A DNA stretch of 64,000 bases, from assembly GCF_900113065.1 (NCBI RefSeq), contig NZ_FOOA01000004.1:124001-188000 (forward strand), given 5' to 3'. The first letter of the stretch is position 1. Each line of letters starts with the position of its first letter. Shown one piece after another: positions 1,804 through 5,020 of the stretch. Source of the DNA: Aureimonas phyllosphaerae (lineage in GTDB: Bacteria; Pseudomonadota; Alphaproteobacteria; Rhizobiales; Rhizobiaceae). The position numbers and the translations under genes are program-made. The notes below the pieces were generated by a model. It had not been told where the DNA came from and did not search any database. It saw only the letters and a program-made list of their open reading frames with translations.

Positions 1804-1946
1804 ACCAAGGCATTAAGATTTCATGAACGACAAATTGGCTGAGTTATGCACGCGCTGCACAACAGACGTGCTAAACCTGCTCTCCTTTTAGGCACCTGCG
1901 AGGCGTATATCGGGGTCAACGAATTCTGTTGCTCCCCGAGGCTCCC

Positions 1947-2093
1947 ATGCTCAACTCCATTGCCAAGCGTTTTCAGTCCTTCCGCTCGCACCGCCGCACC
2001 GTCATCGAACTCAACAGCATGGACGACCGCATGCTGAGCGACATCGGCGTGATGCGCGGCGACATCGAGCGCATGGTTCGCATCGGTCGCTGA
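1947..2093 (+). CDS. DUF1127 domain-containing small protein
   Basis: A 48-residue protein beginning MLNSIAKRFQSFRSHRR. The C-terminal half has the DUF1127 pattern: an acidic/polar helix, then LxDIGVxRGDIERMV. Single-domain DUF1127 proteins are abundant in alphaproteobacteria; some are linked to RNA turnover or to phosphate and carbon metabolism, but no specific role can be assigned here. The gene stands alone between nudC and a strong terminator, consistent with its own short transcript. A 143-bp gap upstream would hold its promoter; I could not pick one convincingly. Confidence 0.88.
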   Translation: MLNSIAKRFQSFRSHRRTVIELNSMDDRMLSDIGVMRGDIERMVRIGR

Positions 2094-2116
2094 ACCGAGA
2101 CACCGCACCGAACATG

Positions 2117-2146
2117 AAAAAGGCCCCGCTCTGGCGGGGCCTTTTT
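2117..2146 (+). terminator. Rho-independent terminator after the DUF1127 gene
   Basis: Perfect stem AAAAAGGCCCCGC / GCGGGGCCTTTTT with a TCTG loop, followed by more T residues on the plus strand. The A-rich left arm gives a U-run on the minus strand too, so it could also end the convergent kdsB-pheA transcript. Confidence 0.93.
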
Positions 2147-2156
2147 CGTTGGCGCC

Positions 2157-3755
2157 CTACTCCGCGGCGCCGGGATGCGTCGGTCGGTCGGGCGAGGCGG
2201 GATAGACGCCCATGATCGAGACGCGCTTGGAGAAGAAGCGCAACTCGTCAAGCGCGCGGGCGACGCCGGGGTCGTTCGGATGCCCCTCGATATCGGCGAA
2301 GAACTGCGTCGCCACGAACTTGCCCTCCAGCTGGTAGCTCTCGAGCTTGGTCATGTTGATGCCGTTGGTGGCAAAGCCTCCGAGCGCCTTGTAGAGCGCG
2401 GCCGGCAGGTTGCGCACCTCGAAGACGAAGGTCGTCACCACCATCTCGCCGGACCGCGGCGCCCAGAGATCCTCGCCGCGGCCCGGCCGCGACAGGACCA
2501 CGAAACGCGTCGTGTTGTGCTCGGCGTCCTCGACGTTCTCGGCGAGGATGTCGAGCCCGTAGAGCTCGGCGGCCAGCCGGGGCGCCAGCGCTGCGACGTC
2601 GCGTTCCGCCATCTGCGAGATGATGCGCGCCGCACCCGCCGTATCGCCGGAGATGACCGGCTTCCAGCCGTTGCGCCGGAGGATCCCGCGGCACTGGCCG
2701 AGCGCGTGGATGTGGCTGTGCACCTCGCGGATGTCGGCAAGGCCCGTGCCGGGCTTGGCCATCAGCTGGAAGCGGATCGGCAGGAAGAACTCGCCGACGA
2801 TCTGGAGGCCCGACACCGGCAGGAGGTGGTGGATGTCGGCGACGCGGCCGGCGATCGTGTTCTCGATCGGGATCATCGCAAGGTCCGCCTCGCCGCGCGT
2901 CACGGCGGCGAGCGCATCCTCGAAGGTCGGGCACGGCAGCGGCTCGAGGCCGGGATACATCGTCCGGCAGGCGGTGTCGGAGTTGGCACCCGGCTCGCCC
3001 TGGAACGAGATCCGGTTCGAGCGCGTCGCCGGCTCGAAGAAGCGGCGGGCTTCCTCCAGCTGGTGGGGCATGTCGACGCCGAGCGGCACGGCCTCGACGA
3101 TCTCCGCGTCGATCCGCATGCCGGCCTCGAGCGCGCGCAGCTGCTCGAGCTTCTCGCGCGTCTCCAGCGGCGACGGCGGCAGCGCCACGAAGCGCGCGAG
3201 CGCCGTGCGGCGATAGGCGTAGATGCCGACATGGTGATAGAGCGGCCCGTCGCCCGTCGGGGCGGTCGCGCGCGTGAAGTAGAGCGCGTTCAGCCGGTTC
3301 TCGGCGAGCGGCGTGCCGATCAGCTTGACGACGCTCGGGTCGGCCCGGTCGGCGGGGTTCTCGATCTCGACGGCAACGGTCGCGATCTCGCAGGCGGGAT
3401 CGGCGAAGGGGCGCAGCACGGCCCGGATCGTCTCCGGCTCGATCGTCGGCAGGTCGCCCTGCAGGTTGATGATCGTCTCCACCTCGCCCGCGGGATCGAG
3501 AGCTTCCAGCGCCTCGAAGATGCGGTCGGAGCCGGACTGGTGGTGCGAGCCCGTCATCACCGCATCGAAACCCGCAGCCGTGACCGCATCGCGAATCGCC
3601 GCGTCGTCGCACGCCACCACGACGCGACCGATACCGGCATCGCGGGCCCGCTCGGCCACGCGCACGATCATCGGACGTCCGCCGATGTCGGCCAGGGGCT
3701 TCATGGGAAGCCGGGTCGAGGCCAGCCGGGACGGGATCAGGATCAGGGTGGACAT
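2157..3755 (-). CDS. kdsB-pheA: KdsB-PheA fusion: CMP-KDO synthetase joined to prephenate dehydratase
   Basis: One uninterrupted 532-residue frame holds two enzymes. Residues 1-240 are 3-deoxy-manno-octulosonate cytidylyltransferase (lipid A/LPS core synthesis): [15 protein letters not shown] start, LQGDLP near 98-103, [14 protein letters not shown] end. Residues 247-532 are prephenate dehydratase (phenylalanine synthesis): [14 protein letters not shown] start, catalytic TRF at 416-418, then an ACT domain (from about 441) with the effector-site region [21 protein letters not shown]. The linker is only about six residues, with no stop. In related genomes kdsB and pheA are separate neighbours as I know them. 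An internal ATG (codon 229, at 3069-3071) could still give a separate PheA. Divergent from cycM. Confidence 0.93.
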
Positions 3756-3820
3756 GGGTCGGGACTCTGGTGCGGCCGCAGGAAATTTAGGCGAAGCTGT
3801 GACAGGAGGGCGCTTGATCG

Positions 3821-3834
3821 ATTCCGATCGGAAT
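3821..3834. promoter_or_regulatory. Perfect 14-bp palindrome in the kdsB/cycM divergent region
   Basis: ATTCCGATCGGAAT is self-complementary over all 14 bases. It lies 66 bp upstream of the kdsB start and 134 bp upstream of the cycM start, a plausible place for a dimeric regulator. No known consensus is recognised, so function is inference. Confidence 0.3.
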
Positions 3835-3967
3835 GTCAGAACGCTTCCAATTGACGGGCTTGAGCCAGGCTGCCGGGAACCGGCGGGCCGCGCTCCGTGT
3901 CCGTGGAACGTCGAAAGCGCGTGTCGTCGGCCCCTTGCGCCGGCTGCAGAGGGAGCCGCCCTTTATC

Positions 3968-5020
3968 ATGAATTCGTTCGAGGCCAACAAGATCTTCGGT
4001 GCCCTCCTCGGCACCGTGTTCGTTCTGTTCGGCGGCAGCCTTCTGGCCGAAGGCATCTTCCATGCCGAGGCGCCCGAGCAGCCCGGCTTCGCGATCGCCG
4101 TGCCCGATGCTCCCGCCGGCGGGGGCGCCGCGCCAGCAGCCAACGAGGTGACGCCGGTCGGCCAGCTGATGCAGAACGCCAATGCCGAGGCGGGCGCCGC
4201 GATCTTCAAGCGCTGCCAGGCGTGCCATTCCGGCGAGAAGGGCGGACCCAACAAGGTCGGTCCCGATCTGTGGGACGTCGTGAACCGCCCGATCGCCTCG
4301 CACGAGGGCTTCAGCTACTCGGCCGCGATGACCGAGTTCTCGCAGGGCAAGACGGTGGTCTGGGACTGGGATCACCTCAACCACTTCCTGCATGGGCCCA
4401 AGCAGTACATCAAGGGCACGGCGATGGGCTTTGCCGGCATCGCGAAGGACCAGGAGCGCGCCGACCTCCTCGCCTATCTCGGCACCCTGTCGGACAACCC
4501 GCCCGCACCGCCCGCACCGGACGCCGGCGCGCCGGCCGGCGGTGAAGCGGCGGCGGCTCCGGCCGAGACCGCCCCGAACGCCACGACCAACACCAACGCC
4601 CTGCCGAACGACGCGGTGACGCAGCCCCAGGGCGCCGGCACGACCGACCAGACCACCGGCGCAGCGCCGACCGCGCCGGCGTCCGGCACGGTTCCGGCCA
4701 CCGGCACCAACGCCGAGAACCGCCCCGCCGGCGCGCCCGTGCCGCCGACCGAGCCCGGACAGGCCGCGCCCTCGCAGCCCGGCACGCAGGCTCCGCAGGA
4801 GAACCCGGCGCCTTCCACCCCTCCCGCCGCGGCACCGGCTGCGCCCGCTCCGGCCGAGCCCGCAGCTCCGGCGCCTGCCGCGCCCGCTCCGGCGCCCCCC
4901 GCCGCCCCGGCTCCGGCGCCGGCAGCTCCGGCTCCAGCCACTCCGGTCGCTCCGGTCGCTCCGGTCGCTCCGGTCGCTCCGGCGAACAACGCGGCTCCCG
5001 CGCCGGCACCGGCCCAGTAA
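3968..5020 (+). CDS. cycM: Membrane-anchored c-type cytochrome with long Pro/Ala tail
   Basis: CycM-type cytochrome c that carries electrons at the periplasmic face toward terminal oxidase. The protein has 350 residues from the ATG at 3968, the only start placing a hydrophobic anchor (about 10-27) at the N-terminus. Haem attachment is CQACH (Cys83, Cys86, His87); the distal ligand is Met153 in KGTAMGF. The globular domain ends near 176. Residues 178-350 are an unusual low-complexity tail of Ala, Pro, Thr and Gly, ending in repeated PVA units. CycM proteins I know of lack so long a tail. Frame and codon use continue unchanged through the tail and end at a terminator, so I accept it as coding. 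Confidence 0.9.
4941..4982 (+). repeat. 9-bp tandem repeat in the cytochrome tail
   Basis: CTCCGGTCG repeated 4.7 times, encoding APV units. Being a multiple of three, copy-number changes would keep frame and alter only tail length. Confidence 0.95.

Follow-up and report, generated by a model that had tools for sequence, protein, structure and literature searches.

In the 64,000-nucleotide stretch of Aureimonas phyllosphaerae DNA analysed here (the window), kdsB and pheA occupy one reading frame, and we consider it likely that this frame goes back to an ancestral in-frame fusion, yields one two-enzyme polypeptide and has been kept mainly without a functional link between its parts. The ORF list and its translation placed the 532-codon open frame at 2157..3755 on the minus strand, from an ATG (3755-3753) to a stop codon (2159-2157). 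An earlier reading of the letters without database searches (the sequence-only reading) had reported this 532-residue frame; the frame was real, whereas its minus-strand orientation had been left unstated. That reading also described two complete enzymes of two unrelated pathways, with no stop and a linker of about six residues between them. The frame and the model boundaries given below bore out the linker, both models matched at full length and above their cut-offs, and the single frame confirmed the physical joining.

The KdsB half (CMP-Kdo synthetase) comprises residues 1-240 (3036..3755, minus strand), and the PheA half (prephenate dehydratase with an ACT region) residues 248-532 (2160..3014, minus strand). 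In the fused protein, Pfam CTP_transf_3 matched residues 5-215 (144.5 bits) and Pfam PDT (PF00800) residues 249-424 (191.2 bits; cut-off, 25.2). The NCBIfam KdsB model PRK05450.1-1 covered residues 1-241 with 381.1 bits against a cut-off of 281, TIGR00466 (KdsB) scored 197.7 bits against 155.2, and the NCBIfam PheA model PRK11899.1 covered residues 245-525 with 461.3 bits against 359. Pfam gave no ACT match at E 0.001 in the fused protein; the ACT region was instead backed by the NCBIfam match, which is full-length, and by an alignment to 6vh5, a structure with bound phenylalanine. The KdsB half could be aligned to 8ees, 3oam and 1vh1. Of the motifs that we take to be functional, N-x-QGD and GVD, presumably the nucleotide- and Mg-binding motifs of KdsB, as well as IPIEN, TRF and LESY of PheA, were present in all 21 fused proteins of the genus, and R-x-x-STRLP in 20 of them. 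Judged by these matches, the frame is one that encodes a complete KdsB joined to a complete PheA. The PheA half also resembles GqqA (7am0; 54-55% identity in the structure alignment), a prephenate dehydratase for which quenching of quorum-sensing signals has been reported as a further activity (PMC8192741).

In all 21 Aureimonas genomes examined, the genome search returned the gene as a single match across both halves, and the junction, read in every one of them, was open throughout. Stops that suggested re-split genes in G017 (TAG), G003 (TGA) and G007 (TGA) proved to sit at the C-terminal end of PheA, where the tail is shorter. Each genome contained exactly one PDT family match, inside the fused frame (21/21). 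For CTP_transf_3, the genome of the window yielded the fused copy plus a weak partial match on another contig (31.2 bits, profile positions 2-115), and a search with the fused protein (E 1e-20, 21 genomes) gave one KdsB copy per genome except in G015. This last genome carries a second, separate KdsB-like gene (L111, C2:627678-628415), 56% identical to the fused KdsB half, which could relieve the fused copy. A single Kdo transferase, WaaA, was found in the genome of the window, which indicates that Kdo is used and needed there.

Outside the genus the two genes are separate. The first comparison set comprised 204 loci, of which 165 were from other genera with both genes placed on one strand, and kdsB and pheA were separate in all 165; some genomes occur twice, and the 165 protein pairs include 157 distinct ones. 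The preference given to matches that span both genes biases the set towards same-frame neighbours (153/165). Another 52 loci were then examined, 51 of them with separate genes and one (L257) without kdsB near pheA. Altogether, separate genes were found in 216 of the 216 loci from other genera with both genes placed, in agreement with the earlier description of these genes as usually separate neighbours. In the unfused loci, the distance from the kdsB stop to the downstream codon that corresponds to residue 247 is 6-141 nt (median, 30; n = 165), and pheA has a separate start, ATG or GTG, situated a few codons upstream of that position. The neighbours in Rhizobiaceae and other Alphaproteobacteria have the same genes, order and strand as in Aureimonas and keep the kdsB stop and the pheA start, whereas the fused gene has neither; the alignment with relatives that the sequence-only reading had proposed as a check showed precisely this loss in the fused genus. 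Adjacency in relatives together with a single frame in Aureimonas marks the gene as a fixed fusion of neighbouring genes. One of the loci with kdsB followed by pheA, L092, comes from a record titled Bacillus subtilis SK6B4, and its KdsB tail and spacing are those of Pseudochrobactrum (L091, L094); the record is mislabelled or contaminated.

No independent fusion was found in four samples in which every spanning match outside the genus was read at the junction: none among 47/47 in the family sample (247 genomes), 51/51 in the order sample (397 genomes, E 1e-160), 25/25 in the class sample (385 genomes, E 1e-145) and 13/13 in the phylum sample (398 genomes, E 1e-90). These counts apply to fusions within the thresholds and in frame, as more divergent or frameshifted ones would escape, and the reading took in all spanning matches but only a minority of the genomes with two separate matches. 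One candidate, G208, in which the PheA match continued into the end of KdsB with no intervening stop, was rejected, since its kdsB ends in another frame.

The junction, taken as residues 237-247 (3015..3047, minus strand), evolves fast, is nearly constant in length and contains no stop. From the GVD motif to residue 247 there are 63 nt in the window, versus 78 (L063), 84 (L144) and 93 (L041) in unfused loci. Within the 13 codons before residue 247, no ATG, GTG or TTG occurred in 20 of the 21 fused genomes, G018 having an ATG at -6. Linker length was equal in 20 of the 21 genomes, which fits one event, and 19 different linker peptides were found. Invariant positions amounted to 101/236 in KdsB and 137/276 in PheA, and to 1/11 in the linker. 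Summed over 15 within-genus pairs, dN/dS was 0.166 for KdsB, 0.517 for the linker and 0.094 for PheA. These values indicate purifying selection on both halves and suggest that both enzymes are maintained, with a linker that appears loosely constrained and bears no common cleavage motif. Stop-avoidance in the linker was set aside as a sign of translation, because at 68% G+C too few stops would be expected.

The trees lean towards a single origin of the fusion. With 60 rows, one change to the fused state was obtained (support, 80), and with 39 rows, again one (support, 91/92; 88% of bootstrap trees). In a tree with more close relatives (38 rows), the free topology needs two changes and 22% of the bootstrap trees need one; a single clade of the fused genes was nevertheless not rejected (p-AU, 0.546), and the tree constrained to it was 1.38 log units better. 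The ambiguous backbone of this tree is attributable to the long-branched pair G009/G020. The stem leading to the genes of these two genomes (L021 and L020, respectively) is very long (0.71-0.86 changes per column), and their proteins are only 66-67% identical to that of the window. The simplest event would be an in-frame deletion that took the stop, the spacer and the start together.

AlphaFold was run on a single chain with an input of 69 rows (the window, 8 fused proteins and 60 separate halves) and gave a mean pLDDT of 88.2 and a pTM of 0.68 for the whole chain. Foldseek matches included 6vh5 for the PheA half (69% identity; target TM, 0.91) and 3k8d for the KdsB half (43% identity; TM, 0.86), so both predicted folds match solved relatives; among the 50 Foldseek matches listed, no solved structure covered both halves. 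KdsB is described as a homodimer (PMC3149649), and so is the related prephenate dehydratase GqqA, with L-Phe at the ACT interface (PMC8192741). With both partners dimeric and a short linker between them, the fused chains might be expected to form a closed dimer or a higher assembly, such as a chain of subunits.

We propose that kdsB and pheA were initially short-spaced neighbours, as they are in related bacteria, and that in the Aureimonas ancestor an in-frame change, probably a small deletion, removed the kdsB stop and the pheA start. The product of the gene would since then have been a single polypeptide of some 532 residues, made up of two independently folded enzymes, the CMP-Kdo synthetase at the N end and the prephenate dehydratase at the C end, each presumably active in its own pathway. 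The fusion would have persisted as the genus diversified, probably for two main reasons: each part is present in single copy and is presumably required, and re-separation would take a stop and a start arising together.

Among the alternatives, the one that survives best, although we regard it as unlikely, is that a free PheA is made besides the full-length fusion by initiation within kdsB, at codon 213, 223 or 229. Codon 229, for which the sequence-only reading had proposed this role, is indeed an ATG in the window (3069..3071, minus strand). The same codon is found in only 6 of the 21 genomes; it was therefore discarded as a conserved internal start and offers no general way to free PheA. Better led is the ATG at codon 213 (3117..3119, minus strand), present in 17 of the 21 fused genes, 9 of these 17 with a Shine-Dalgarno-like lead of -5 kcal/mol or better. 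In addition, all 21 genomes have at least one ATG, GTG or TTG within 40 codons upstream of residue 247, with a GTG 24 codons before it in most of the genomes listed, and some leads exceed those of ordinary unfused pheA starts (-5.9 and -6.6 kcal/mol for the window's ATG at -34 and GTG at -24, respectively, against a median of -3.2). At codon 213, fused genes have a somewhat better median lead than unfused ones (-5.6 versus -3.3), a mild lean towards such initiation. However, the codon 213 ATG also occurs in 148 of the 152 unfused loci in which this codon position could be located (another 13 gave no placement), and in 68 of these 148 the lead is -5 or stronger. Its conservation is therefore explained by the KdsB sequence and was ruled out as a sign of a PheA start, and the ATG is moreover lost in 4 of the 21 fused genomes. 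G005 and G014 (L013, L014) offer only GTG codons, 24 and 20 codons before residue 247 and lead-less (+0.4), and any product would bear 18-34 KdsB residues. The leads themselves say little in these genomes, since they are weak at real starts, with the median of -3.2 at unfused pheA starts (163 of 165 loci) and values of -2.1 to -3.5 at the kdsB starts of the 8 fused genes listed. As for a free KdsB, the sequences as read imply that ordinary termination cannot provide it in any of the 21 genomes.

A second alternative, which we judge improbable, is that the fusion was selected, the activation of the lipopolysaccharide precursor being coupled to amino-acid status, through allostery or through assembly, when CMP-Kdo synthetase is joined to a phenylalanine-sensing ACT enzyme. 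The closed dimer or subunit chain that two homodimeric partners on a short linker would be forced into is in accordance with this idea, as is the retention of the fused state in all 21 genomes. Against it, the linker is the least conserved part of the protein, and the CMP-Kdo and phenylalanine pathways share no intermediate. The enforced assembly of two dimeric enzymes is also the basis for reading the protein as an obligate chimera, in which CMP-Kdo synthesis would be altered by the binding of phenylalanine to the ACT region, or by assembly into a chain or ring, so that outer-membrane building would be coupled to amino-acid supply; to this form of coupling we give a distinctly low probability.

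Cleavage of one chain by a protease into KdsB and PheA seems very improbable. Although the linker is short and variable and looks exposed in the predicted structure, it has no conserved motif, as its 19 different peptides in 21 genomes illustrate; unspecific clipping is possible. Lastly, a sequencing or assembly error that opened the junction, which the sequence-only reading had named as a possible refutation of the fusion, can be discarded: nothing spoke for it, and the same open junction is found in 21 of the 21 genomes, of which three are single-contig (G003, G005 and G007) and ten also appear as named Aureimonas strains under ten different record prefixes, fused in 10 of 10.

The proposed fusion, kept mainly without a functional link, can be set beside other enzymes of similar build. 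The P-protein (chorismate mutase-prephenate dehydratase, NF007910) likewise consists of PDT-ACT with an N-terminal enzyme partner, so the N end of PDT tolerates one. In that protein the partner is chorismate mutase, whereas in Aureimonas it is KdsB, of another pathway, and NF007910 matched the fused protein at residues 243-521 with only 127 bits against a cut-off of 577, below the P-protein threshold. Among the papers listed in literature searches of open-licence articles, there was no report of a kdsB-pheA fusion. Exported fusions of chorismate mutase with cyclohexadienyl dehydratase have been described (PMC10520331), likewise rare, lineage-restricted and involving a phenylalanine-pathway dehydratase, but these join, as far as that account goes, successive steps of one pathway and contain a dehydratase of another family than PheA. 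The "Rosetta stone" metabolic fusions (PMC4921024) similarly turn neighbouring metabolic genes into one polypeptide; the partners there are, in the background which that paper gives, functionally related, unlike KdsB and PheA, and its main text mentions neither of these two genes.

Metabolic gene fusions are usually interpreted as evidence of cooperation between the partners, and the present one is unusual because its partners serve unrelated pathways. With two single-copy enzymes of unrelated pathways fused genus-wide, it provides a clear-cut natural example with which to ask whether fixation and retention of a fusion are possible in the absence of a functional link, and it cautions against inferring such a link from fusion alone. 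It also matters for annotation, since naming the protein after one half hides the other. If the halves did influence each other, lipopolysaccharide synthesis would be linked to the phenylalanine level, and we know of no other link between the two.

Around the fused gene, no sigma-70-like promoter was detected at 1900-4000 (0 found versus 0.1 expected). Just 3' of the gene lies an inverted repeat with an A-run and a T-run (2117..2146, extent set by eye), a probable two-way terminator; the terminator scan gave its plus-strand form at 2128-2140, with 1 found versus 0.8 expected in shuffles. A small basic protein of 48 residues, presumably of the DUF1127 kind, is encoded at 1947-2093 on the plus strand, convergent with the fused gene. 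On the opposite strand, a 559-codon frame (2175-3854, plus strand) mirrors the fused gene and was taken for a shadow ORF of high-G+C coding DNA. Upstream and divergent, with a likely start at 3968, is a gene at 3968-5020 (plus strand) that we take to be cytochrome-c-like, the product of which has a long proline/alanine-rich tail built of short repeats.
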